This document shows positions 2,598 to 54,592 of a DNA stretch of 64,000 nt, in pieces. The stretch is from the NCBI GenBank assembly GCA_017435425.1, contig JAFSFC010000054.1, positions 31,595-95,594 on the forward strand, in the 5' to 3' direction. This stretch comes from Ruminiclostridium sp. (GTDB lineage Bacteria; Bacillota; Clostridia; Oscillospirales; Oscillospiraceae). Below the pieces are notes generated by a model. That model had not been told where the DNA came from. It saw nothing but the letters and a program-made list of their open reading frames with translations, and did no database searches. The translations under genes and the position numbers were made by a program. Each line of letters opens with the position of its first letter. Positions within the stretch are counted from its first letter, which is position 1.

Positions 2598-3193
2598 CCA
2601 AGTTTGAATTTTTATATTCTGCCAGCAAGCTCGTCTTCAACGTGGTGAGCTTCCTGAAGCCCAAGCGCATTTACGGCGTGGAGAACGTGCCGGAAGGTCC
2701 TGCAGTCATCTGCGCCAACCACGTCCACTTCTCCGACCCCTTCTACATTGTCCATGCGATCCCCCGCAGACATAAGATTTGGATCATGTCCAAGGAAGAG
2801 GTCAGCCGCTGGCCGGTGGTGGGACCTCTTCTGAAATGGAGTGAGTTCATCATCTTCGTCAAGCGGGGTAAGTCGGATGTGGGGGCTGTGAAGAATGCCC
2901 TGAAAGCCCTGAAGGGGGGCGAGAAGCTTCTCATCTTCCCTGAGGGAACCCGCCACGATGAGATCGGCGAGGGCAAGACCGGCGCGGCCATGATGGCCAT
3001 TCGGACGGGTTCTCCTGTCCTGCCGGTGCACATCTCCCCCCAGCGGAAGCTCTTCCATCCCATTGAGATCCGGTTCGGCGAACCCTATATGCCCTTCACC
3101 GAGGACCGGAAGGCCAATGCGGAGGACTATCAAATCGCTACCGATGCCCTCATGGAGAAGATCAAGGCCCTGGGCCAGGAGGGGAAGGCATGA
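2594..3193 (+). CDS. plsC: 1-acyl-sn-glycerol-3-phosphate acyltransferase
   Basis: A 199-residue PlsC-type acyltransferase making phosphatidic acid at the membrane. The catalytic block NHVHFSD (NHxxxxD) lies near residue 40, and the phosphate-binding FPEGTR block near 118. The start is TTG overlapping the cmk stop, with AAAGAGAGG upstream. The stop overlaps the ispH start by 4 bases. Its length is at the short end for the family, with no N-terminal membrane helix. Confidence 0.92.
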   Translation: MTKFEFLYSASKLVFNVVSFLKPKRIYGVENVPEGPAVICANHVHFSDPFYIVHAIPRRHKIWIMSKEEVSRWPVVGPLLKWSEFIIFVKRGKSDVGAVKNALKALKGGEKLLIFPEGTRHDEIGEGKTGAAMMAIRTGSPVLPVHISPQRKLFHPIEIRFGEPYMPFTEDRKANAEDYQIATDALMEKIKALGQEGKA

Positions 3194-5145
3194 GAGAGGT
3201 CATCCTGGCCAAGTCTGCCGGGTTCTGCTTCGGCGTCCGCCGGGCAGTCCAATTGGCAGAGAAGATCGCAGAGGAGGGCAAGCCCTATGTGATGCTGGGG
3301 CCGGTCATCCACAACGACAACGTCATTGAGGACCTGGCTGCCCGTGGGGTAGGCTGCGTCCATTCCATCGAGGATGTGCCCCCGGGACACGGGGTCATCA
3401 TTCGCTCCCACGGAGAGCCCAAGGCGGTCTATGACAGGCTGGAAGAGATGGGCTGTCCCATCGCCGATGCTACCTGCGTGAAGGTCTCACAGATCCATCA
3501 AATTGTCAGGGAGGCCAGCGACCGTGGCCGGCAGGTCATCATCATCGGCTCCCCGGAGCACCCGGAAGTCAAGGCCATTGCGGGCTGGTGTGAGGGGGCA
3601 GAGATCTTCCGAAATGTGGAAGAACTGTCTGATTTTCTGAGCGCTGCCAAAGAAAATCCACAAAAACCGGTGACCCTGGTCTCCCAAACTACATCTACGG
3701 ATAAAATTTGGACTCCGTGCAGAGAAAAAGTAAAAAAAGAGTGTACAAACGCAGAAATTTTTGATACAATATGTGATGCTACGTGTAAGCGGCAATCAGA
3801 AGCACAGAGATTGGCGGAGCACTGCGGCGCAATGATCGTGATCGGCGACCGAAAAAGCTCCAACACAAACCGTCTTGCTGAGTTATGCCGGGCGCACTGC
3901 CCACTGGTTTTCCACATCAGCCGGGCTGAGGAGCTTGACCGGAGTATGGTAAGCGGGGTAGCTTCTGTGGGAATCACCGCCGGCGCGTCGACGCCGGGGT
4001 GGATAATAAAGGAGGTAAACAACAAAATGAGCGAAGAGCTGAACAACGTTATGGAGATCGAAGAGTCTTTCGCAGACATGCTGGAGAGATCCATCAAAAC
4101 TTTAAATACTGGTGATAAGGTCGTTGGTGTCGTTACCGGCATCACCAACACCGAAGTCAACGTCGACCTGGGCACCAAGCACGCAGGTTACATCCCCCTG
4201 TCCGAGCTGACCGACGACCCCTCCCTGAAGGTTGAGGACATCGTCAAGATCGGTGACGAGATCGAGACCTATGTCATGCGCGTCAACGACATGGAAGGCG
4301 TTGCTACCCTGTCCAAGAAGCGTCTGGACACCGTCAAGAACTGGGACACCATCGAGGCTGCTGTGGAAGACAAGACCGTCATGGAAGGCGTTGTCACCGA
4401 GGACAACAAGGGCGGCGTCGTTGTCAACGTCAAGGGCATCCGCGTGTTCGTTCCCGCTTCTCAGACCGGAATGCCCCGCGGCGCTGACCTGTCCGAGATG
4501 CTGAAGGAGCGCGTCCAGCTGCGCATCACCGAGGTCAACCGTTCCCGCCGTCGTGTGGTCGGTTCCATCCGTGCTGTTGCTGCTGAGGCTCGTGCTGCTA
4601 AGGCTGCAGAGGTCTGGGAAGGCATCGAGGTCGGCAAGAAGTACGAGGGTACCGTTAAGTCCCTGACTTCCTACGGCGCATTCGTCGACATCGGCGGCGT
4701 TGACGGCATGGTCCACGTTTCCGAGCTGTCCTGGAGCCGCATCAAGAACCCCGCTGAGGTTGTTGCTGTTGGCGACGCAGTTTCCGTCTATGTCATCTCC
4801 TTCGACCCCGAGAAGAAGAAGATCTCCCTGGGCATGAAGGATCACTCTCAGGATCCTTGGTCCGTCTTCACCTCCACCTACGAGGTGGGCTCCGTGGCTT
4901 CCGTCCGCGTTGTCAAGCTGATGACCTTCGGTGCTTTTGCTGAGATCGTTCCCGGCGTTGACGGTCTGATCCACATCTCTCAGATCGCTGATCACCGCAT
5001 CGAGAAGCCCGGCGACGTTCTGGAAGAGGGCCAGGTCGTTGACGTCAAGGTCACCGACATCGACATGGACCGCAAGAAGGTCTCCCTGTCCATCCGCGCA
5101 CTGCTGAACGACGCAGCTGAGGAAGAGGCAGAGGACGCTGAGTAA
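3190..5145 (+). CDS. ispH-rpsA: Fused HMBPP reductase (IspH) - ribosomal protein S1
   Basis: A 651-residue fusion. Residues 1-278 are IspH, the last step of the MEP isoprenoid pathway. The [4Fe-4S] ligands Cys13, Cys96 and Cys195 are present, with His41, His74, His124 and Glu126 in the expected spots. Residues about 300-640 contain four S1 RNA-binding domains, the third and fourth with the typical GAFV/GAFA and HVSEL/HISQI motifs. The fusion is known in Clostridia. An in-frame ATG at 4027 (residue 280) has a perfect GGAGGT at 4011-4016, so S1 can also be made alone. Codon choice shifts across the joint: the S1 half is rich in GCT/GTT, as in highly expressed genes. Confidence 0.95.
   Translation: MREVILAKSAGFCFGVRRAVQLAEKIAEEGKPYVMLGPVIHNDNVIEDLAARGVGCVHSIEDVPPGHGVIIRSHGEPKAVYDRLEEMGCPIADATCVKVSQIHQIVREASDRGRQVIIIGSPEHPEVKAIAGWCEGAEIFRNVEELSDFLSAAKENPQKPVTLVSQTTSTDKIWTPCREKVKKECTNAEIFDTICDATCKRQSEAQRLAEHCGAMIVIGDRKSSNTNRLAELCRAHCPLVFHISRAEELDRSMVSGVASVGITAGASTPGWIIKEVNNKMSEELNNVMEIEESFADMLERSIKTLNTGDKVVGVVTGITNTEVNVDLGTKHAGYIPLSELTDDPSLKVEDIVKIGDEIETYVMRVNDMEGVATLSKKRLDTVKNWDTIEAAVEDKTVMEGVVTEDNKGGVVVNVKGIRVFVPASQTGMPRGADLSEMLKERVQLRITEVNRSRRRVVGSIRAVAAEARAAKAAEVWEGIEVGKKYEGTVKSLTSYGAFVDIGGVDGMVHVSELSWSRIKNPAEVVAVGDAVSVYVISFDPEKKKISLGMKDHSQDPWSVFTSTYEVGSVASVRVVKLMTFGAFAEIVPGVDGLIHISQIADHRIEKPGDVLEEGQVVDVKVTDIDMDRKKVSLSIRALLNDAAEEEAEDAE
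3742..3770 (+). promoter_or_regulatory. Candidate internal promoter for rpsA inside ispH
   Basis: TGTACA (3742-3747), a 17-base spacer and TACAAT (3765-3770) preceded by TG (extended -10) lie within an unusually A+T-rich stretch of ispH. This is 257 bases before the internal ATG at 4027. The pattern is visible; promoter activity is inferred. Confidence 0.5.
4011..4029 (+). promoter_or_regulatory. Internal ribosome-binding site and start for stand-alone S1
   Basis: AAAGGAGGT followed after 10 bases by an in-frame ATG at 4027, exactly at the IspH/S1 joint. Initiation here would give a 372-residue, four-domain S1 protein. The match to the anti-Shine-Dalgarno sequence is better than that of the upstream ispH start. 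Confidence 0.75.
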
Positions 5146-5320
5146 TCTCAGTTTCTGAAAAAAGCTGGTAGGCGCGAGCGCCATCCAAACAAACACTTGC
5201 CGGCAGAACACAGAATCAAGAAAGGGGGACTGCCGTATGGCTGGTCCCTCTTTTTTTGACAAAATAAAAGGGTGGCTGTCAGGAGAACCTAACAACACCC
5301 GAAAGAATGGAGGACAAACC

Positions 5321-5530
5321 ATGGTTACCATTACCAAAGACACCATTGTGGGCGACATCCTGGATATCGCACCCGAGACCGCACCCGCATTCATCGAGAT
5401 CGGTATGCACTGCCTGGGCTGCCCCGCATCCCGCAATGAGACCGTGGAGATGGCTTGCATGGTCCACAACGAGAACGTTGACGACCTGGTCAAGAAGCTC
5501 AACGATCTGATCGCTGCCAACAAGAAGTAA
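5321..5530 (+). CDS. DUF1858 domain protein
   Basis: A 69-residue protein that is essentially one DUF1858 domain, with the CLGCPASRNETVEMAC core holding three cysteines. The domain occurs next to hybrid-cluster or ScdA-like redox proteins; its function is not established. Two starts are possible: ATG at 5321 after AATGGAGG, chosen because the domain begins there, or ATG at 5237 after AAAGGGGG, which adds 28 residues (97 in total). It stands alone, followed by a strong terminator. Confidence 0.75.
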   Translation: MVTITKDTIVGDILDIAPETAPAFIEIGMHCLGCPASRNETVEMACMVHNENVDDLVKKLNDLIAANKK

Positions 5531-5544
5531 TCAAACAACCGGAA

Positions 5545-5575
5545 AGGGGCGGGATTCCGCCCCTTTTTATTTTGT
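5545..5575 (+). terminator. Intrinsic terminator after the DUF1858 gene
   Basis: GGGGCGG-GATT-CCGCCCC stem-loop followed by TTTTTATTTT. Confidence 0.9.
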
Positions 5576-5591
5576 AAAGCGAGGAATTTCC

Positions 5592-6296
5592 ATGAGAGAA
5601 CTGGAATTGACCCCACGACTGATGGCCATTGCCGACCAGGTCCCACAGGGGGCCAAACTGGCCGACGTGGGCACCGACCACGCCTACCTGCCGGTATATC
5701 TGCTCCTTCGGGACCGCATCCAAAGTGCTGTGGCCTCTGATGTGAACGAAGGTCCTCTTCAGCGGGGCCGGGAGACCGCCCGGACCTATGGGGTGCCCGG
5801 GGAGAAGATCGCCTTCCGCATCTGCGACGGCCTGGCCGGGGTGGAGGCCTACGAGGCCGACACCGTGGCCATCTGCGGCATGGGAGGCGAGCTGATCTCC
5901 CGCATCCTGGGGGCTGCCCCCTGGACGAAAGAGGCCCTCCTGCTCCTCCAGCCCATGAGCTCCCAGCCGGAGCTCCGCCAGTGGCTCATGGCCAACGGCT
6001 ACACCATCGGGCGGGAGCAGGTGGTGAAGGAGGGGGAGAAGTATTACGTGATCCTCACTGTCACCGGCGGGGCCTCCGAACATTACACCCCGGCGGAGCT
6101 CTTTGTGGGCCGTCAGCGGGAAGGGGAGGACAACCCCCACCGGGGGGCCTACCTGACTGACCAGATCCGCCGCCGGGAACGGGCCCTGGCAGGGATGAAG
6201 CAGGGAACCCCCGACCCTGAGACTCTGGCCCGGGAGGAAGCCCTCCTTCAGGGCTTGAAAGACATGGAAAAGGAGTGGAAGGCATGGCAACGGTAA
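5592..6296 (+). CDS. trmK: tRNA (adenine(22)-N1)-methyltransferase
   Basis: A 234-residue TrmK-family SAM-dependent methyltransferase. The N-terminus LTPRLMAIADQV and the SAM-binding block LADVGTDHAYLPVYL (residues 22-36) are family signatures, and AICGMGGELI forms the next motif. TrmK methylates A22 of tRNA. The gene overlaps the NIF3 gene by 13 bases, the pairing usually seen in Firmicutes. Confidence 0.9.
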   Translation: MRELELTPRLMAIADQVPQGAKLADVGTDHAYLPVYLLLRDRIQSAVASDVNEGPLQRGRETARTYGVPGEKIAFRICDGLAGVEAYEADTVAICGMGGELISRILGAAPWTKEALLLLQPMSSQPELRQWLMANGYTIGREQVVKEGEKYYVILTVTGGASEHYTPAELFVGRQREGEDNPHRGAYLTDQIRRRERALAGMKQGTPDPETLAREEALLQGLKDMEKEWKAWQR

Positions 6297-7078
6297 AAGA
6301 GATCTACACTCTTCTGGACGGGAAGGCGCCCTTCCGGTACCAGATGGGTTTTGACAATGCAGGCTTCCTGGTGGGCCGGGGGAACGCAGAGGTTTCCAAG
6401 GTCCTGGTGGCCCTGGACATCACCCCGGCGGTCATCGCCGAGGCGGTGGAGCTGGGAGCTCAGCTCATCGTGGCCCACCACCCGGTGATTTTTGGCCAGA
6501 TCGGTCAGGTCACCGATGAGACCTCTACCGGCCGGAAGGTCCTGGCCCTCATTGAGAACGGCATCGCCGCCATCTGTGCCCACACCAACCTGGACGCCGC
6601 CGAGGGGGGCGTGAACTCCGAGCTGGCCCGCCGGATGGGCCTGGAGAACCCTGTGCCCCTGGAGGTGGATGGGGAGGACGAGAACGGGGTCCCCTACGGT
6701 ATTGGCCGGGTGGGCACTCTGCCCCAGGCCATGTCCCTGGCCGACTTCGCCGCCTACACCAAGCAGGCCCTGGACCTGGAAGGGGTCCGTGTCCTGGACG
6801 CTGGTGTCCCCGTGTCCAAGGTGGCAGTGGGAGGCGGCTCCTGCGGCTCCATGCTCCCTCTGGTCAAGGCCCAGGGCTGTGACACCTTCGTCACCTCGGA
6901 TCTGAAGCATGACCTGTATCTGGAGGCCCGGGACATGGGCATCAACCTGCTGGACGCCGGCCACTACTCCACCGAGACGGTGGTCTGCCCGGTGGTGAAG
7001 ACCTGGTTGGAAGAGGCTTTCCCCGGCCTGACCGTGGAAATTGCCCAGAACCAGGGCGAGGTTTTTACATATTTCTAA
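6284..7078 (+). CDS. NIF3-family dinuclear metal-centre protein
   Basis: A 264-residue NIF3/YqfO-type protein. Metal-ligand signatures are visible: GFDNAG (residues 20-25), the AHHPVIF motif near 65, the CAHTNLDAAEGGVN block near 99, and the C-terminal DAGHYSTE near 225. The biochemical role of the family is unsettled. The ATG at 6284 (after AAGGAG) was preferred over a GTG three codons upstream. The central PII-like insertion of longer homologues is absent. Confidence 0.9.
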   Translation: MATVKEIYTLLDGKAPFRYQMGFDNAGFLVGRGNAEVSKVLVALDITPAVIAEAVELGAQLIVAHHPVIFGQIGQVTDETSTGRKVLALIENGIAAICAHTNLDAAEGGVNSELARRMGLENPVPLEVDGEDENGVPYGIGRVGTLPQAMSLADFAAYTKQALDLEGVRVLDAGVPVSKVAVGGGSCGSMLPLVKAQGCDTFVTSDLKHDLYLEARDMGINLLDAGHYSTETVVCPVVKTWLEEAFPGLTVEIAQNQGEVFTYF

Positions 7079-7088
7079 GGTCAGCCCC

Positions 7089-7117
7089 TTGCCAAGGCCA
7101 GCCCTCTGTGATAAAAT
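7089..7117 (+). promoter_or_regulatory. Promoter of yebC
   Basis: TTGCCA (7089-7094), 17-base spacer, TAAAAT (7112-7117) with an upstream TG. Good match to a vegetative extended -10 promoter. Confidence 0.7.
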
Positions 7118-7189
7118 TAATTAGTTAAAGAGATACGCGGGGCAGGCTCTGTCCGGCGAACAATATATGATACGAAGGGAACGATACCT

Positions 7190-7924
7190 ATGTCCGGACA
7201 TTCCAAGTGGCATAATATTCAGAAGACCAAGGGTGCCGCTGACGCAAAGCGCAGCGCTGCCTTCACCAAGATCGCCAAGGAGATCATCGTGGCTGTTAAG
7301 GCCGGCGGCTCCGGCGACCCCGCAAACAACTCCCGCCTGGCTACCGTCATCGCCAAGGCAAAGTCCGCCAACATGCCCAACGACAACATCAAGCGCACCA
7401 TCGAGAAGGCACTGGGCGCCAACAACACCGACAACTACGAGTCCGTGGTTTACGAAGGCTACGGCCCCAACGGCGTTGCTGTTATCATCGAGGCTCTGAC
7501 CGACAACCGTCAGCGCACCGCTCCCGAAATGCGCCACCTGCTGGACAAGTACGGCAAGGGCCTGGGCGCTACCGGCTGCGTGTCCTGGTCCTTCGACCGC
7601 AAGGGCGTGCTGGTCATGGTGGACGAGGACGGCGAGCTGGACGAAGATACCGTCATGATGGACGCTCTGGACTGCGGCGCAGCCGACCTGGAAGTGGACG
7701 GCGAGGTCTTCACCGTCTACACCGAGCCCGATGATTGCGGCGCTGTGGCAGCTGCCATGCAGGAGAAGGGCTATGTCTTCGCCTCTGCCCAGGTGGAGAT
7801 GGTCCCCCAGAACTACGTGAAGCTGACCGACGCTGGCGACATCAAGAACATGGAGAAGCTCATCGACATGCTCGAGGACAACGACGACGTCCAGAACGTG
7901 TACCACAACTGGGACGAAGAATAA
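7190..7924 (+). CDS. yebC: YebC/PmpR-family protein
   Basis: A 244-residue YebC-family protein starting with the hallmark MSGHSKWHNIQKTKGAADAK. Members are described as transcription regulators or ribosome-associated factors that help translation through proline runs. Codon usage is highly biased, like the S1 segment, suggesting high expression. The gene is monocistronic between its own promoter and a terminator. Confidence 0.95.
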   Translation: MSGHSKWHNIQKTKGAADAKRSAAFTKIAKEIIVAVKAGGSGDPANNSRLATVIAKAKSANMPNDNIKRTIEKALGANNTDNYESVVYEGYGPNGVAVIIEALTDNRQRTAPEMRHLLDKYGKGLGATGCVSWSFDRKGVLVMVDEDGELDEDTVMMDALDCGAADLEVDGEVFTVYTEPDDCGAVAAAMQEKGYVFASAQVEMVPQNYVKLTDAGDIKNMEKLIDMLEDNDDVQNVYHNWDEE

Positions 7925-7931
7925 GTGATTC

Positions 7932-7966
7932 AAAAGACCGCTGGAATATTCCGGCGGTCTTTTCTT
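7932..7966 (+). terminator. Terminator of yebC
   Basis: AAAGACCGC...GCGGTCTTTT hairpin with a U-rich 3' arm. Confidence 0.85.
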
Positions 7967-7989
7967 TGGCCCCTAAGAGTCCCCGTGGC

Positions 7990-8017
7990 TTGCTTTTCGT
8001 TCTCAGTTTGATATAAT
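7990..8017 (+). promoter_or_regulatory. Promoter of the cas12f-like gene
   Basis: TTGCTT (7990-7995), 16-base spacer, perfect TATAAT (8012-8017) with TG one base upstream. It lies between the yebC terminator and the nuclease start, so the CRISPR locus has its own transcription unit. Confidence 0.65.
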
Positions 8018-8079
8018 AACAGCATAAGGAACATGACGTATGCGTAGTGCGCATAGTCCAATGGCTGAGAGGTGATGTC

Positions 8080-9372
8080 GTGGGAACTGTTACAAAGGTT
8101 ATGAAGTATGAGCTTCGCTATCTGGATGGAAGCGGCAGCTTCCATGATATGCAGAACTATGTTTGGCAGCTGCAAAGGCAGACAAGGGAAATCCTGAATC
8201 GCACCATACAGGAAGCGACCCTTTGGGATTATAGAAGCAGAGAGCACTTTCTGGAAGCAGAGGAATACCTTGATGTTTATGCAGAAACTGGTTACAAGAC
8301 ACTTGATGGCTACATATATAATCGCCTAAAAGGTTCCTATGGTGATTTTGCCGGAGCCAACCTGAACGCAACGTTGAGGAAGGCATGGAAGAAGTATAAA
8401 ACTTCTAAAACAGAAGTTCTTCGGGGGACAATGTCCCTTCCTTCCTATAAGGGAGACCAGCCGTTGGTTCTGCACAATGGTTCTGTGAAACTTCAGGGAG
8501 ATAGTCGGGATGCCGTTGTTGAATTGACGCTGTTTTCTAACACCTTCAAAAAGAGGGAGGGTATCAAAGGGAATCCAAGCTTTTCTTTGCTGGTTCGGGA
8601 TAACACACAACGGTCAATTTATCAGAGTTTAATAGATGGCGTCTATAAGCTTGGCGAATGCCAGTTGGTGTATCAGAAGAAAAAGTGGTTTCTTCTCTTG
8701 ACGTACACTTTTGAAGCCAGGCAGCATGAGGTGGACCCTGAAAAGATTCTGGGCGTTGATCTGGGAGAGGCCTATGCCATCTATGCAAGTTCCAAAGACA
8801 ATTTCGGAAGCTTGAAAATTGAAGGTGGAGAGGTAACCGACTACGCAAAAGGTCTTGAGCGACGGAAACGAGCCCTCCAGCAGCAGGCCCGCTACTGTGG
8901 CGAAGGCCGTGTTGGCCATGGAACGAAAACCAGAGTAACCGAGGCGTACAAGGCAGAAGACCGCCTTGCAAACTTCCGCAAGACCATCAATCACAGGTAC
9001 AGCAAGGCCTTGATTGACTATGCGGTAAAAAATGGGTATGGCACCATTCAGATGGAGGATCTCTCCGGCATTAAGGCGGATACAGGGTTTCCTAAGCGGC
9101 TGCAGCATTGGACCTACTATGATTTGCAGAGCAAGATTGAGGCCAAAGCCAAAGAATATGGAATCCATGTGGTGAAGGTTGACCCCAGCTATACCTCCCA
9201 GCGATGTAGCAAGTGCGGGCATATTGATTCGCAAAATCGAAAGACCCAGGAACGTTTTCTGTGCGTCAGTTGTGGCTTCAGTTGTAATGCAGACTTCAAT
9301 GCCTCTCAAAATCTCTCCATCAAGGGGATTGAAAAAATCATCAAAAAAACAAAAGGTGCGAAGGTGGAGTGA
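8080..9372 (+). CDS. cas12f1: Cas12f1-like miniature type V-F CRISPR nuclease
   Basis: A 430-residue RNA-guided nuclease from GTG 8080, which has GAGGT six bases upstream; ATG at 8047 would add 11 residues. RuvC-like acidic residues are Asp227 (GVDLG), Glu326 (QMEDL) and Asp405 (NADFNAS). A zinc ribbon with Cys376/379/395/398 sits between RuvC II and III. The N-terminal half (VLRGTMSLPSYKGDQPL) and the NHRYSKALID segment closely resemble AsCas12f1 as I remember it, whose catalytic residues lie at nearly the same positions. IS605 TnpB shares the RuvC/zinc core. The downstream tracrRNA-like region and CRISPR array, and the lack of TnpA or transposon ends, argue for Cas12f. No cas1, cas2 or cas4 is nearby. 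Base composition is visibly lower in G+C than its neighbours, suggesting transfer. Confidence 0.88.
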   Translation: MGTVTKVMKYELRYLDGSGSFHDMQNYVWQLQRQTREILNRTIQEATLWDYRSREHFLEAEEYLDVYAETGYKTLDGYIYNRLKGSYGDFAGANLNATLRKAWKKYKTSKTEVLRGTMSLPSYKGDQPLVLHNGSVKLQGDSRDAVVELTLFSNTFKKREGIKGNPSFSLLVRDNTQRSIYQSLIDGVYKLGECQLVYQKKKWFLLLTYTFEARQHEVDPEKILGVDLGEAYAIYASSKDNFGSLKIEGGEVTDYAKGLERRKRALQQQARYCGEGRVGHGTKTRVTEAYKAEDRLANFRKTINHRYSKALIDYAVKNGYGTIQMEDLSGIKADTGFPKRLQHWTYYDLQSKIEAKAKEYGIHVVKVDPSYTSQRCSKCGHIDSQNRKTQERFLCVSCGFSCNADFNASQNLSIKGIEKIIKKTKGAKVE

Positions 9373-9384
9373 CCAGACATACCT

Positions 9385-9536
9385 GGCCTCTTTCGCACTA
9401 GGTTCGGGGCGACTTCCCGTCCCAAAATCGAGAAAGTGGCTGTTAGCCCCGGATTATCCGGGCGGGCAATACACTCGAGAAGGTTAAGATGCACATAGTA
9501 ATCCGTGCATGAGTCACTGTGCTGTGCATATTTGCC
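9385..9536 (+). ncRNA. Candidate tracrRNA of the Cas12f-like system
   Basis: The non-coding stretch between the nuclease gene and the first repeat folds by eye into several helices: GGGGCG/CGUCCC (9406-9411 with 9418-9423); UCGAG/CUCGA (9428-9432 with 9474-9478) enclosing CCCGGA/UCCGGG (9448-9453 with 9457-9462); AUGCAC/GUGCAU (9489-9494 with 9505-9510). GAGUCAC at 9511-9517, then GUGC at 9519-9522, can pair with GUGACUU and the bases before it in the repeat, forming an anti-repeat. The UCGAGAA(A)GUG...CUCGA element recalls published Cas12f tracrRNAs. Exact ends are unknown. Confidence 0.7.
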
Positions 9537-9698
9537 GTTGCAACTTACACGTGTACGTGACTTGAAGGGGAAGGAGTCACCAACATGACAAACAATAATG
9601 TAGTTGCAACTTACACGTGTACGTGACTTGAAGGTCCATTGACGAGGGCAACAAGGGCGAGCAGTTCAAGTTGCAACTTACACGTGTACGTGACTTGA
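9537..9698 (+). CRISPR. Mini CRISPR array, three repeats and two spacers
   Basis: Three copies of a 32-base repeat start with GTTGCAAC and end GTGACTTGAAGG, at 9537-9568, 9603-9634 and 9670-9698. The third diverges after ...CTTGA, as expected for the leader-distal copy. The repeat contains the self-complementary CACGTGTACGTG. Spacers are 34 bases (9569-9602) and 35 bases (9635-9669). Orientation matches the nuclease gene and the anti-repeat. Spacer 1 reads like a gene start (AAGGAG, eight bases, ATG). Spacer 2 is open in one frame as SIDEGNKGEQF. Confidence 0.92.
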
Positions 9699-9744
9699 TA
9701 TGCTGTCAAGAAACGGCATATGTAATAAGAAACGAAATAGGCGT

Positions 9745-9778
9745 AAAAAAGCACCCGCTCAGCCGAGCGGGTGCTTTC
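9745..9778 (-). terminator. Terminator between the CRISPR array and the converging gene
   Basis: AAAGCACCCGCTC-agcc-GAGCGGGTGCTTT, a 13-bp perfect stem, with the run of A's on its left giving a U tract for the minus strand. It ends the minus-strand gene at 9783 and probably also the CRISPR transcript. Confidence 0.85.
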
Positions 9779-9782
9779 ACGT

Positions 9783-10160
9783 TTAGCCTTGCTTTCCCTT
9801 GGGGAACCAGTTGTAGGCGATGGTGGTGTAGAGGGTGACGGTGATGAGATACTCGATCACGTTCTGGGCGGTGAAAATGGACAGGTCGGCAGAGAAGAGA
9901 TACCGGCCTACCAGACCCAGGGAGGCGAAGATAAAGACCATAACCAGGATGCGGAGGGTGTAGCCCGAGCCGTAGATGCGGGTCATCAGGCTGCCCAGGG
10001 CACCGAAGAACAGCAGGAAGCAGAGGAGAGGAAAAATCTGAACGTCCGGCTCAAAGATCCGGCTCAGGGGGAACTGATAGCCGCTGAGGAGAGCGGTGCA
10101 CAGCCAGAGCATGGCCAGGAAAAAGAGTTGGGTTGCTCTGTCGTTTCGGGGTGTACTCAT
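9783..10160 (-). CDS. Small multi-spanning membrane protein, unknown function
   Basis: A 125-residue protein with four predicted membrane helices: about residues 11-28, 42-62, 68-88 and 95-118. No motif is recognised. AAGGAAG precedes the ATG by seven bases. It lies 21 bases after the phosphoesterase gene and is probably co-transcribed with it and the SLH protein gene. Confidence 0.7.
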   Translation of the reverse strand: MSTPRNDRATQLFFLAMLWLCTALLSGYQFPLSRIFEPDVQIFPLLCFLLFFGALGSLMTRIYGSGYTLRILVMVFIFASLGLVGRYLFSADLSIFTAQNVIEYLITVTLYTTIAYNWFPKGKQG

Positions 10161-10181
10161 GGGGATACTTCCTTTCTGTGT

Positions 10182-11015
10182 TCAGGTGATTTCGATGATG
10201 ACCAGCTCCGGGCTGTTGAAGAGCCGGGGGATGGAGGTGGACTCCCGGGCCAGGCCCCGGCTCACCAGGAAGGTGCAGTCGGGGAAGTCGTACCGGCCTC
10301 CGGCATACTTTGGGAAAAACCCCTGGTTGGGGGCCAGCAGACCGTTGAGGAGGCCGGGGATCCGCCACTGGCCTCCGTGGGCGTGGCCGGACAGGATCAG
10401 GTCAAAGGCCCCGAAGGACCGGTAGTGTTCGATCTGCTCCGGCCGGTGGGACAGGAGGACGGTAAAGCGGGCGGGGTCTGCCTGGGCGGCGGCCTGGGTC
10501 AGCTGGCGGTCCATGGCCTCCTGGCCGATCCCCTCGGGGTCGTCCACCCCGCAGATCTGGATGGTCTGCCCCTCTGCGGTCAGGGGAATACAGTCCCCTT
10601 CCAGGACATAGGCCCCGGCAGAGCGGATGAATTCCTTGATCCCATCCATGTCCTCGGTGCGGTACTCGTGATTGCCCGAGACGTAATAGGCGGGATAGGT
10701 TTTGGAAACTTCTGTTACAAATTGCTCGCCTTTTTCCCTGGGGATATCGTCGTCGATGATGTCGCCCCCCAGAAGGACAGCGTCCGGATTTTGGGCGGCG
10801 ATGGCATCCAGCAGTTCCCGCTGGCCCTCTCCGTAATCGCAGGAGTGGAGGTCGGTGACCAGGGCCAGCCGGATGGGCCGGTCCACTTCCGGGGCATCCA
10901 GCTCATAGGTGACAGTGATCATTTCGTCGGTAGAACCCACCAGGAAAAGGGCGGCCGTCCCCAGAAGGAGGACGGCCAGAGCTGCGAGCAGCCCATTTCT
11001 TGCAGATGCTTTCAT
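10182..11015 (-). CDS. Membrane-anchored metallophosphoesterase (YaeI-like)
   Basis: A 277-residue calcineurin-like phosphoesterase. An N-terminal membrane helix (residues 9-28) is followed by the metal-site motifs DLHS (near 55), GGDIIDD (near 80), GNHE (near 114) and SGHAHGGQWR (near 230). Homologues act on lipid-linked or exported phosphoesters; the substrate here is unknown. No clear ribosome site precedes the ATG, and the gap to the upstream stop is only 6 bases, so coupling is likely. Confidence 0.85.
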   Translation of the reverse strand: MKASARNGLLAALAVLLLGTAALFLVGSTDEMITVTYELDAPEVDRPIRLALVTDLHSCDYGEGQRELLDAIAAQNPDAVLLGGDIIDDDIPREKGEQFVTEVSKTYPAYYVSGNHEYRTEDMDGIKEFIRSAGAYVLEGDCIPLTAEGQTIQICGVDDPEGIGQEAMDRQLTQAAAQADPARFTVLLSHRPEQIEHYRSFGAFDLILSGHAHGGQWRIPGLLNGLLAPNQGFFPKYAGGRYDFPDCTFLVSRGLARESTSIPRLFNSPELVIIEIT

Positions 11016-11021
11016 GGTTCG

Positions 11022-12764
11022 TTAAGCCAGGTTGAACAGAACGCGGGCATTGGGGTCAGCCATGCGCACCAGGATGGTGGCAACCTCCGCGCGGGTGATG
11101 GGAGCGTTGGGGAGGAAGGTGCCTGCGCTGTCGTTGCCGGCCAGGATGCCTGCACGATAGAGCTTGTAGATGGAGGCATCGGAGCGGTACACATCGGGAA
11201 TGGAACCGAAGGGGACGTTGTTCACTGCAGGCAGGGCCTCGGCAGGCAAGGCGTTGGCCACGATGGCGGCAAACTCCTGACGGGTCAGGGTACAGTTCAT
11301 GTCGGAGGGGAGATTGCCGATGATGCCCTGGCTGATGGCGTAATCGGAATAGGCCTTGTACCAGGGGTTGGTGGCGGCAAAGGAACCGTTGCCGGTAACA
11401 AAGAGCTTCCGCATACGGGCGGCCAGGGTGATGGTCTGGGCAGCGGTGACCTGGGAAGTGGGCTCAAACTTGGCGGGCTCCACACCGTTCATCAGGCCGT
11501 AGGCGTAGACATTGGCGATGCTGTCGTAGTACCAGGCGTTTTTGGAGACATCCCGGAAGACGCCGTTGTACGTGTTGTTCTTATGGAAGCCCCTGCCGGT
11601 GGTGGTCCACTTGGCAGTGAGGGTGTGGCCGGTGGTGGTGGAGATCAGAGAGGAATTGTTCACCGGCTTGCCATTGGCGTTATACCAGCCCAGGAAAGCT
11701 GCCCCGTTTTTGGTGGGGGTGGGGAGCTGGTACTTGGTCCAGGCCTGGGCCAGCTGGTACTTGTTGGAGAGGGAGCCGCCGTTGGCATCGTATGTGACCG
11801 TCAGATAACCTTTCTTCACCTGGAAGGTCTGCCAGTCAGAGTTGGTGTAGGTCCAGGGATTGGCGTTGGCGTTGGTGGCCTGGACCTTCACCCGGTAGGT
11901 GCCGGCGGGCAGGGGCTCCAGAGAGAAGGGAGAGATCACATAGAAGTGGTAGCGGTAGTTTTGCTTCCAGGAGCCGTCGGCCTGCTTCTGCTCCACATAG
12001 ATGTTGTAGTGGGTGGCCAGGTTGGCGGCGCCCCAGGAAATTGCGATCTTATCCCCGGTGCCGTAGGCGTCGGCCAGGTCGGCCACCTGGGGGGTGGTGG
12101 GAAGGCCAAAGGCGGGCAGGATGGTGTCCTTGGCAGAGGGGTTGGCCTTGAAGCAGATCAGACCGCCGATGGTGCCGCTGTACTCGGACAGGAGCTTCTT
12201 GGCGGCCACGCCGGAGTCAAAGATCTTCACGTCAGAGCCGATCACCTGATCCACCGCCACAAAGTGGCCGCTGTACTTCACACGGGCGATGACATAGTAG
12301 CCGCTGGCCTGGAGCTGGCTGACCCGCAGGGCCACATCGGCCATGGGGGTGTCCGTGGAAAAGAACTCCTGGTTGGTGAAGTAGAACCGGGGGGAGGTGT
12401 TGTAGGTGATCTGCCCGAAGGACAGCAGGGCGTCCTGGGAACTGGTCTGGCTGTGGCTGATGTACCCCTGCTTGTCCAACCAGTCCCGGAGGGTGCCGGG
12501 GTTCAGCTGGGCGGGGTCATAGGCACCGGAGTGGCACATGAGCACAGCGATGGAGGAGATCAGGCAGCCGGAGCCGCCGAAGGTATGCAGATCACCCAGA
12601 GGGGTTTTGCCCCAGGCGGGGTCGCCCTGCCGCCAGGTGGTGTAGTCGGTGCTGTAGTTGGTGCCGTTATAGACAGAGGTTCCGGCGGCGCCGGCCAGGG
12701 GGACCGGCAGCAGGGTGAGGAGCATCACCAGGGCCAGGAACGCAGGTAACATTCTTTTTCGCAC
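11022..12764 (-). CDS. Exported SLH protein with C39-like peptidase, Fn3-like and InlB-type repeats
   Basis: About 580 residues from GTG 12764, which follows AAAGGAGG by eight bases. A signal peptide (MRKRMLPAFLALVMLL...AGAAG) leads. A C39-like papain-fold domain follows, with candidate Cys67 (GGSGC), His167 (SGHFVAV) and Asp183 (IFDSG). A fibronectin-type-III-like segment lies near residues 235-315, then an InlB B-repeat (TVTYDANGG...FLGWY...TAKW). Three SLH motifs (about 400-575) should anchor it to the S-layer or wall polymer. The substrate is unknown; it may bind or cleave peptides at the cell surface. Confidence 0.85.
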   Translation of the reverse strand: MRKRMLPAFLALVMLLTLLPVPLAGAAGTSVYNGTNYSTDYTTWRQGDPAWGKTPLGDLHTFGGSGCLISSIAVLMCHSGAYDPAQLNPGTLRDWLDKQGYISHSQTSSQDALLSFGQITYNTSPRFYFTNQEFFSTDTPMADVALRVSQLQASGYYVIARVKYSGHFVAVDQVIGSDVKIFDSGVAAKKLLSEYSGTIGGLICFKANPSAKDTILPAFGLPTTPQVADLADAYGTGDKIAISWGAANLATHYNIYVEQKQADGSWKQNYRYHFYVISPFSLEPLPAGTYRVKVQATNANANPWTYTNSDWQTFQVKKGYLTVTYDANGGSLSNKYQLAQAWTKYQLPTPTKNGAAFLGWYNANGKPVNNSSLISTTTGHTLTAKWTTTGRGFHKNNTYNGVFRDVSKNAWYYDSIANVYAYGLMNGVEPAKFEPTSQVTAAQTITLAARMRKLFVTGNGSFAATNPWYKAYSDYAISQGIIGNLPSDMNCTLTRQEFAAIVANALPAEALPAVNNVPFGSIPDVYRSDASIYKLYRAGILAGNDSAGTFLPNAPITRAEVATILVRMADPNARVLFNLA

Positions 12765-12817
12765 GTTCAATGCCTCCTTTTCATGGGTATGGAGTCTGTA
12801 CATAATAATACAGTTTC

Positions 12818-12846
12818 AGTATGGCATAAAATAGCGGAAAAGTCCA
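12818..12846 (-). promoter_or_regulatory. Possible promoter of the SLH/C39-like gene
   Basis: On the minus strand, TGGACT (12846-12841), 17-base spacer, CATACT (12823-12818) preceded by TG. A moderate match only. Confidence 0.4.
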
Positions 12847-12876
12847 GTAAATTGGGGGAACTGTAAGATTTCTGCA

Positions 12877-12921
12877 ATAAAAAGAGCCACAGGCCGGGAC
12901 TTTGCTGTCCCGGCCTGCGGC
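12877..12921 (-). terminator. Terminator downstream of the 35-residue ORF and dehydratase-like gene
   Basis: A 15-bp stem around CAGGCCGGGAC/GTCCCGGCCTG, followed on the minus strand by TCTTTTTATTG. Confidence 0.9.
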
Positions 12922-12946
12922 CCAAAGAGAGATAGGGAGAAACATA

Positions 12947-13054
12947 TCAATGGGGGCTTGACCGGCGGTGGCTTCCCAGGCAGACGGCAAAGACCAGAGC
13001 CAGGGACAGCAGACTTCGGATGATGGAGAGGATGGAGTGGATGCGCTTGACCAT
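12947..13054 (-). CDS. Small ORF: 35-residue single-helix membrane peptide
   Basis: ATG at 13054 is preceded by AAAGGAGC at six bases, as good as any ribosome site here. The product is a basic N-terminus (MVKRIHS), one hydrophobic helix (ILSIIRSLLSLALVFAVCLG) and a short basic tail. It starts 21 bases after the dehydratase-like gene stop and ends just before its terminator, so it is the last cistron of that transcript. No family is recognised. Confidence 0.55.
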   Translation of the reverse strand: MVKRIHSILSIIRSLLSLALVFAVCLGSHRRSSPH

Positions 13055-13075
13055 AAGAAGCTCCTTTCCGGTGGG

Positions 13076-14323
13076 TCACACGGCGGCAGTCTGCTGACGG
13101 AGACCGGCCTTCTCCCGAGCGGTGGCCAGCATGAGCTTGATGCGGTTTTCCTGGTTCACCCGGGAGGCGTTGGCATCGTAGTCGATGGAGCAGATGTTGG
13201 CGTTAGGGTAGAGCTCCTTGAATCGGCGGAAGGCACCACGGCCCACAATGTGGTTGGGCAGGCAGCCGAAGGGCTGGGCGCAGAGGATGTTCTCGTATCC
13301 GTGGCGGACCAGTTCGCTCATCTCGGCCGACAGGTACCAGCCCTCGCCCATCTTCACGCCTCGGTCCAGGATCTTTTCCCCTTGGGCCCGTATATGCCGG
13401 AAGGAGGAGGGGCGGACAAACTGGGGGAAGTCCTTCAGAGTGTGGTTCAGAACAGCCTCATAGGCGGTGATCACTCCGGTGGTGACCTTGCTGACCAGAG
13501 CCTTGATCCGGCTGTCCCCATAAAGGGCCCGGTCCACTGCCGGACCGTCCAGACAGTAGTGGAGGAAGCCCAGGACCCCGGGGAGCATATACTCGCAGTC
13601 CTGCTCCTGGAGGAATTCCTCCAGGTTGTTGTTGGCGAAGGGGGAATACTGGGCGTAGACCTCTCCCACGATACCCACCCTGACCTTCTTCTGGGTCTTG
13701 GTGGGGATGGCGGCAAAGTCTTCGGCCATCTGGCGCAGATGCTTTCTCAGCTGGAAGGGGAGGACCGAGGCGGAGAAGAGGAGACTCTTCATGTAGTCGT
13801 ACCATCGCTCCATGACGGCTTGGGTGTCCCCGGGGTTGACCTCATAGGGCCTGACCTGATTTTTCAGGAGCATCATCAGGTCCCCGTAGGTGACGGCGGC
13901 CAGAGCCCGGAGGCAGAGAATGGGGGTCAGGCGGAAGCCGCTGTCCCGGCTCAGGGTGGTGAAACCCAGGGTGATCACCGGGATGTGCTCCATGCCCAGC
14001 TTCTGCAGGGCTTTCTTCAGGGCCATCACGTAGTTGGAGGCCCGGCATCCGCCGCCGGTCTGAAACTGCATGAGGGCAATGGATCTGGTGTCATGGTCTC
14101 CGCTGATGACGGCGTGGAGCTGCTGACCCAGGGAGCAGATGGCGGGGTAGCACATGTCGTTGTGGATATACTTGAGGCCTGCCTCCAGAACGGAGGGACC
14201 CTGGGTCCGCAGGACCTGCGCCTTGTATCCGCTGGCCCGAATGGCGTTGGCCAGCAGCTCCATGTGGACGGGAAACAGATCGGGGATCAGCAAAGTATGC
14301 TGTGATTTGGAAAAAGCTGTCAC
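13076..14323 (-). CDS. 2-hydroxyacyl-CoA dehydratase-related protein (activase-associated DUF2229/HgdB-like)
   Basis: A 415-residue protein resembling the C-terminal third of the large 'CoA-substrate-specific enzyme activase' proteins. Conserved stretches are NDMCYPAICSLGQ near residue 55, QFQTGGGCRASNY near 88 and QPFGCLPNHIVGRGA near 355. The cysteines Cys58, Cys63 and Cys93 are candidate iron-sulfur ligands. The ATPase (BadF/HgdC) domains that usually sit in the same polypeptide are absent here and next door. It is divergent from a TetR-type gene and shares operators with it. Its role is unknown. Confidence 0.75.
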   Translation of the reverse strand: MTAFSKSQHTLLIPDLFPVHMELLANAIRASGYKAQVLRTQGPSVLEAGLKYIHNDMCYPAICSLGQQLHAVISGDHDTRSIALMQFQTGGGCRASNYVMALKKALQKLGMEHIPVITLGFTTLSRDSGFRLTPILCLRALAAVTYGDLMMLLKNQVRPYEVNPGDTQAVMERWYDYMKSLLFSASVLPFQLRKHLRQMAEDFAAIPTKTQKKVRVGIVGEVYAQYSPFANNNLEEFLQEQDCEYMLPGVLGFLHYCLDGPAVDRALYGDSRIKALVSKVTTGVITAYEAVLNHTLKDFPQFVRPSSFRHIRAQGEKILDRGVKMGEGWYLSAEMSELVRHGYENILCAQPFGCLPNHIVGRGAFRRFKELYPNANICSIDYDANASRVNQENRIKLMLATAREKAGLRQQTAAV

Positions 14324-40595: not shown

Positions 40596-40633
40596 AAAAA
40601 ATACGGGGATCCCCTGATCTGGAGACTCCCCGT
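40596..40633 (-). terminator. Attenuator of the thiS-proximal TPP riboswitch
   Basis: ACGGGGA...TCCCCGT stem (40603-40609 with 40627-40633) followed on the minus strand by ATTTTTT. It lies between aptamer 2 and thiS. Confidence 0.7.
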
Positions 40634-40638
40634 CAAAC

Positions 40639-40725
40639 GGTTCCCTACGGCGGCATTATCCACATCAGGTTATAAGGGTCGAAGGTGAAACCTTCCTCTC
40701 AGCCTGTTGCACAAGCTCCCCGCGT
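40639..40725 (-). ncRNA. TPP riboswitch 2 (thiS-proximal)
   Basis: On the minus strand: GGGGAGCUUG, GGCUGAGAGGA, CGACCCUU, ACCUGAUGUGGAUAAUGCCG and GUAGGGAA in the order and spacing of the THI element. It should reduce thi transcription when thiamin pyrophosphate is plentiful. Confidence 0.95.
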
Positions 40726-40735
40726 ATGCGATTGT

Positions 40736-40772
40736 AAATAAAAACAGGAGACACCCTTTGGATGCCTCCTGT
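40736..40772 (-). terminator. Attenuator of the upstream TPP riboswitch
   Basis: ACAGGAGGCAUCC-aaa-GGGUGUCUCCUGU followed by UUUUAUUU on the minus strand. It sits between the two aptamers. Confidence 0.85.
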
Positions 40773-40787
40773 AAAAAATCCATGTGA

Positions 40788-40872
40788 CTTCCTACGGCGG
40801 CATTATCCGCATCAGGTGTAAGGGTCGAAGTTTGATTACTTCCTCTCAGCCTGCAAAACAAGCTCCCCTGTA
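40788..40872 (-). ncRNA. TPP riboswitch 1 (upstream)
   Basis: Second full THI element on the minus strand: GGGGAGCUUG, GGCUGAGAGGA, CGACCCUU, ACCUGAUGCGGAUAAUGCCG and GUAGGAA. About 70 bases separate it from aptamer 2, with a terminator between. Confidence 0.95.
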
Positions 40873-40885
40873 TTTACTTGAGATG

Positions 40886-54410: not shown

Positions 54411-54461
54411 AAAATGTACAGCAAATGAGCGCAGGCCAGCCTGCGATAACTGTAGCGTACC

Positions 54462-54570
54462 ATCTTCTCCCATCCAGACTTTGACTGTCGGCTCCGGAAT
54501 TTCACCGGGATCATGCCTTTCGGCTCGCGGGCTTTACCGCCGGTAGGGACTTTCACCCTGCCCTGAAGAT
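54462..54570 (-). ncRNA. FMN riboswitch (RFN element)
   Basis: On the minus strand AUCUUCAGGGCAGGGUGAAA, CCCUACCGGCGGU, AAGCCCGCGAGCC, GGUGAAAUUCCGGAGCCGAC and AGUCUGGAUGGGAGAAGAU in canonical order; the ends pair (AUCUUC/GAAGAU). It controls the ribDEBAH operon. Confidence 0.97.
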
Positions 54571-54592
54571 CGCTGTGCAATTGTCGTTTTTT

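Follow-up and report, generated by a model that had tools for sequence, protein, structure and literature searches.

A type V-F1 CRISPR unit with a Cas12f1 nuclease in Ruminiclostridium, and a sister locus whose spacers match phages

What is the small nuclease gene that lies beside a short set of repeats in a Ruminiclostridium genome: a transposon-type TnpB or the effector of a CRISPR (clustered regularly interspaced short palindromic repeats) system? To address this question, we analyzed a 64,000-nucleotide (nt) stretch of Ruminiclostridium sp. (assembly GCA_017435425.1, contig JAFSFC010000054.1, positions 31,595 to 95,594), hereafter the window, in which an initial annotation made from the sequence alone had pointed to a miniature Cas12f1-like nuclease. 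The locus is very probably a type V-F1 CRISPR unit made up of cas12f1, a predicted trans-activating CRISPR RNA (tracrRNA), and a three-repeat array (Table 1). Its likely role is to cut incoming DNA where a match to either of its two spacers lies next to a 5' T-rich protospacer-adjacent motif (PAM).

Identity of the Effector Protein

To which family does the protein belong? Its gene has a GTG start at 8080, preceded by a AGAGGTGA-like ribosome-binding sequence. The initial annotation had described about 430 residues with a RuvC triad and four zinc cysteines, and this description held: the protein has 430 amino acids, and an alignment of 22 proteins (the window protein and 21 picked from the 120 matches listed) shows D227, E326, D405, C376, C379, C395, and C398 without exception. 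The matches listed included at least 120 homologues, each with 57% or higher identity across 95% or more of the query; one entry, P0001, represents 10 contigs. Cas12f effectors with complete guides therefore do not look rare, contrary to what had been supposed; a simple 18-mer script, which detected array-like repeats in 21 of the 27 related loci (two pairs of these loci are identical), further counters that view. With the window protein alone as the query, no close relative was found in the viral collection, while the alignment as the query recovered 19 loci there at 33 to 48% identity.

Profiles, structures, and phylogeny agree on the assignment. Cas12f was the top PADLOC profile (408 bits), followed by Cas12u3 (403 bits); the closest solved structure is that of OsCas12f1 (9NZQ, 618 bits), and the fold ranking favors Cas12f1 over TnpB. 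In the tree (a quick search without bootstrap), the window protein falls in a 31-row set with AsCas12f1 and OsCas12f1, away from the rows annotated TnpB, and this set has a Shimodaira–Hasegawa-like approximate likelihood ratio (SH-aLRT) value of 97; the placement within TnpB that would speak for a transposon protein did not appear. The tree left out four loci with an open reading frame (ORF) under 300 amino acids (L007, L014, L019, and L077) and those lacking a tblastn match at E 0.001. One of these, L007, is an N-terminal fragment at a contig end of another family genome (G379), 56% identical over residues 4 to 57. Together with the scaffold RNA and array described below, these points support the ORF as a type V-F1 Cas12f (Cas12f1) and not a TnpB, as the initial annotation had proposed.

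Could the protein nevertheless be a TnpB or a TnpB–CRISPR intermediate, with an omega RNA at its 3' end and the repeats beside it by accident? RuvC and the zinc finger are common to TnpB, the TnpB-related domain model TIGR01766 also matches, and the scaffold core begins 34 nt past the stop codon. Moreover, among NCBIfam subfamily models, guided_TnpB alone passes its cut-off (186 bits, cut-off 100), and the Cas12f2 model falls far below its own. The expectation that such a gene would be annotated as TnpB was thus right; even OsCas12f1 carries the name "transposase" in its database entry (P0057). We consider this explanation very improbable, however, given the tree, PADLOC, and the fold ranking. 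The protein also has a single match in its own 2.2-Mb genome, i.e., a single copy, and even loci with protein identity as low as about 40% combine the scaffold core with repeats. No transposase (TnpA) or adaptation family was found among nine neighbor proteins (3190 to 14323, two of which matched no family), in line with the initial annotation. On the tree, profiles, fold ranking, and guide anatomy, we rejected a TnpB identity. While IS200/IS605 TnpB shares RuvC and zinc-finger ancestry with the window protein, the latter has no identified TnpA, is accompanied by a tracrRNA-like scaffold and an array, and does not group with the rows annotated TnpB in the tree. TranC is a TnpB–CRISPR intermediate. 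A TranC identity was likewise rejected, as LaTranC was only a weak PDB match (E 0.002) and a literature search gave no title on a CRISPR TranC.

The system in the window is a new relative of OsCas12f1, a known genome-editing enzyme that has already been engineered and structurally solved, and not a new kind of system: this Oscillibacter effector of 433 amino acids has already been described (available text of PMC10090079), as the initial annotation had correctly noted. OsCas12f1 (PDB 9NZQ/9NZS/9NZT) resembles the window protein in subtype, size, RuvC and zinc residues, and membership of the same 14-row clade, and differs from it in sequence (63% identity in a protein search, the comparison being one of proteins). 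AsCas12f1 (PDB 8J12, 8DZJ) shares the Cas12f1 fold and the Cas12f1 clade but is 33 to 36% identical in fold alignments. Os and Rh scaffolds are described as having four stem loops versus five in AsCas12f (available text of PMC13186708). The clade has served for compact genome editing, and the window effector is a further natural variant within it that comes with a guide scaffold of its own.

Predicted Guide Scaffold and CRISPR Array

Does the locus also encode a guide? A tracrRNA-like scaffold spans 9406 to 9535, between cas12f1 and the array, which are separated by 164 bases without a listed gene. Its core motif was found at 17 places in 14 loci, the window included. We aligned 15 of the 17, dropping the second copy in L056 (cut by the locus end) and that in L076 (the same as in L075). 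Over these 15 copies, two named helices are paired in 94.5% of cells and six pairs change on both sides. The covariation score was reached by none of 500 shuffles and was lower at all six slid registers, a comparison in which the unslid register is favored because the structure came from the window's own fold. RNAalifold on six loci gave 26 pairs, 13 of them with compensatory changes. A similar anti-repeat/repeat duplex is predicted in the window and its relatives, and between the window and L002 (a sister locus treated below) it differs by changes on both strands; with the short anti-repeat, shuffled repeats matched the energy of the window duplex in 12 of 1,000 cases, a moderate pass. The tracrRNA-like region had been noted from the window alone, and its recurrence in other Cas12f loci with compensatory changes bears it out: comparison supports a putative tracrRNA between gene and array.

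Three related loci vary this arrangement. L057 has two tracrRNA cores (2655 to 3150), each followed by its own short repeat set, and L060 has cores at 4498 and 6304, with the gene between them. In L003, a 42% relative, the core is retained but all repeats have diverged, suggestive of a decaying array.

The array that the initial annotation had placed beside the gene is present, with three 32-nt repeats starting at 9537, 9603, and 9670. Their spacing of 66 and 67 gives spacers of 34 and 35 nt. The first 29 nt of the repeat have no other place in the 2.2-Mb genome at up to three mismatches. Neither spacer has an exact 20-nt seed match in the viral collection, and spacer 2 has no codon-degenerate match. 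A sample of 350 family genomes gave, for spacer 1, only the spacer itself and, for spacer 2, the spacer itself plus one place in G144 with three mismatches, which we treated as chance. Weak phage matches of the two spacers (E 0.1 to 0.4) were set aside.

Spacer 1 (9569 to 9602) resembles the beginning of a gene, with a ribosome-binding-site-like stretch, an ATG, and then five codons, as though it had been copied from one. Such a spacer would suit a unit that is no longer defensive and instead represses chosen genes through partial guide matches. We regard this as extremely improbable, since the RuvC residues are intact and neither spacer has a second genomic copy (up to three mismatches over the first 25 nt).

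Several results weigh against a functional, guide-directed Cas12f1 unit. No target was found for either spacer in the viral collection, the phage search, or the 350 family genomes, and no sigma-70-like promoter was found in 7900 to 9850, where shuffles average 2.3. The predicted protein model is poor in the RuvC part, with a predicted local distance difference test score (pLDDT) below 50 at residues 216 to 249. The core motif occurs in 13 of 27 related loci and not in the other 14, and further pair types in the RNA alignment were no better than the control (252 of 500 shuffles), this being one of five structure measures. For the contiguous guide region of the window, the advantage in folding over shuffles is modest (z -1.5; 15 of 200). 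When a 45-nt anti-repeat stretch was used, the energy of the window duplex was reached by 38 of 500 shuffles. With the short anti-repeat, the shuffled-repeat test was poor for L056 (171 of 1,000) and L003 (36 of 1,000). The short anti-repeat prefers its own repeat in four of six loci, the window's preferring that of L055 (-22.4); with the 45-nt stretch, the own repeat is preferred in two of six, the window not among them. The repeat/anti-repeat duplex is thus not clearly cognate-specific.

Table 1. Positions in the window of the Cas12f1 unit and its left flank
Feature	Position	Strand	Remarks
yebC	7190..7924	+	Left flank common to genus relatives
cas12f1	8080..9372	+	GTG start, 430 amino acids; RuvC D227/E326/D405, zinc finger C376/C379/C395/C398
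Possible 5' part of tracrRNA	9373..9405	+	Placed by position only
tracrRNA stem GGGGCG/CGTCCC	9406..9423	+	Conserved, compensatory changes
tracrRNA core TCGAG...CTCGA, variable inner stem, then AAGGTT	9427..9487	+	Conserved across loci, compensatory changes
tracrRNA hairpin GATGCAC...GTGCATG	9488..9511	+	Window fold
Anti-repeat	9511..9535	+	Predicted pairing with repeat
CRISPR repeat 1	9537..9568	+	32 nt, reference copy
Spacer 1	9569..9602	+	34 nt; targets searched, none found
CRISPR repeat 2	9603..9634	+	100% identical to repeat 1
Spacer 2	9635..9669	+	35 nt; targets searched, none found
CRISPR repeat 3 (terminal)	9670..9701	+	91% identical, 3' end diverged

Natural Targets of a Sister Locus

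What do such units target? The Cas12f locus of RUG518 (L002; ONPN01000025.1) encodes a protein 65% identical to the window Cas12f and has the same gene–tracrRNA–array order, the conserved tracrRNA core, and a 32-nt repeat. It differs from the window in having five repeats and four spacers and in occupying another site, between ORFs read by eye as mnmA and thrB. We searched the viral collection with 20-nt seeds of spacers 1 to 3 of the four, and all three match viral contigs. Spacer 1 matches L089 and L090 at 32 of 34 positions, with both mismatches beyond the first 20 nt; spacer 2 matches L089 (35/35) and spacer 3 L088 (35/35). A 5'-TTTC precedes the protospacers of all three spacers, with G, C, or A before it. 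Spacer 4 has no match in the three fetched viral loci, which share one IMG sample number. Phage genes, among them one for a major head protein and one for a DnaC-like helicase loader, are present in L088 and L089. For the one stretch of the L002 target that was searched, no phage relatives were found in the phage collection.

The PAM of OsCas12f1 is given as YTTH in the available text of PMC10090079, and the natural TTTC of L002 fits within it. Thus, in a close relative of the window system, spacers match phages at sites bearing the PAM that its effector would require. According to the same text, natural targets gave predicted PAMs for ten of 34 Cas12f1 systems (PMC10090079); natural targets are therefore known for some members of the family. 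From the common protein, guide, and layout, we infer that the window unit may work as L002 would.

Proposed Mechanism and Source of Spacers

How would the unit act? The stretch from gene to array would be transcribed as a tracrRNA and a pre-CRISPR RNA, and predicted pairing between anti-repeat and repeat would give a dual guide. Two Cas12f molecules would assemble on one guide, as in solved homologues. The complex would then recognize a protospacer on the 3' side of a YTTH-type PAM, and RuvC would cut both strands, by analogy with OsCas12f1 biochemistry and with the TTTC at the L002 targets. Guide-dependent cutting of double-stranded DNA by a dimer has been shown for OsCas12f1 (available text of PMC10090079). 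The genome itself shows no source for the spacers, since searches of it turned up neither cas1 nor cas2.

This absence rests on one Pfam profile each for Cas1 and Cas2, run against a genome rated 100% complete. With the Cas1 profile, nothing was found in the genome of L002 either, where a missing contig is possible. In control genomes the Cas1 profile matched nine of 14 and the Cas2 profile seven of 14; in Escherichia coli the former matched and the latter did not, so certain Cas2 types would escape the Cas2 search. The available text of PMC7229846 already notes an absence of adaptation genes for the type V-U3 group.

A short array without adaptation genes may also be read as a decaying unit, in which the nuclease is intact and the two-spacer array is a frozen relic without current targets. 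Consistent with this reading, the array has just two spacers, neither with a target found, its terminal repeat has diverged, the genome searches found neither cas1 nor cas2, and the homologue L003 has visibly degenerate repeats. Decay is nonetheless unlikely, as the catalytic and zinc residues are all intact, repeats 1 and 2 are identical, and the sister locus L002, likewise without a detected cas1, has phage-matching spacers with the right PAM.

Such Cas12f units, then, look like phage immunity whose spacer source is unexplained, and it is this unexplained origin of phage spacers in an adaptation-free unit that gives the locus interest beyond a new member. Because L002 combines phage spacers with the expected PAM and no cas1 found, what writes the spacers of adaptation-free Cas12f loci becomes a directly testable question. 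One tentative answer, which we hold to be possible but rather doubtful, sees the Os-type Cas12f1 unit as an immune cassette of about 1.6 kb that is sufficient in itself and moves, with no integrase, from one chromosomal site to another, unrelated one; its phage spacers would be written by Cas1–Cas2 borrowed from other systems or cells.

Chromosomal Setting and Probable Acquisition

How did the unit come to lie where it does? The GC content of cas12f1 is 46.9% versus about 60% in the chromosome stretch, with none of 314 tiled stretches as low, and the gene is present in one of 16 genus genomes (its own). The yebC flank, by contrast, was matched in 15 of 16, its own included. Three genomes (G004, G005, and G006) match the window on both sides of the unit and carry different cargo after yebC, with no empty site: a small ORF in G004, another short ORF in G006, and in G005 a long ORF read by eye as adenine-deaminase-like. 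Because of its AT-rich composition and patchy distribution, the unit is likely a horizontally acquired insert in a variable intergenic site.

In the genus, the 3' end of yebC (window 7784 to 7925) itself looks like an integration site, used by tyrosine-integrase elements of about 10 and 17 kb. The elements in L086 (genome G015) and L087 (G012) are bracketed by a second copy of the yebC end (119 bp at 100% identity and 150 bp at 99%, respectively), and one yebC-end element carries a type I restriction-modification set. We do not claim this route for the Cas12f unit, because a search of the window for another yebC tail came up empty. A literature search found no paper pairing Cas12f with yebC.

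Elsewhere in the window, a single ORF (3190 to 5145) fuses a LytB (IspH) domain to four S1 domains. On the minus strand lie two tandem thiamine pyrophosphate (TPP) riboswitch aptamers, 39 bases apart (40623 to 40732 and 40772 to 40879), and a flavin mononucleotide (FMN) riboswitch (54458 to 54574).
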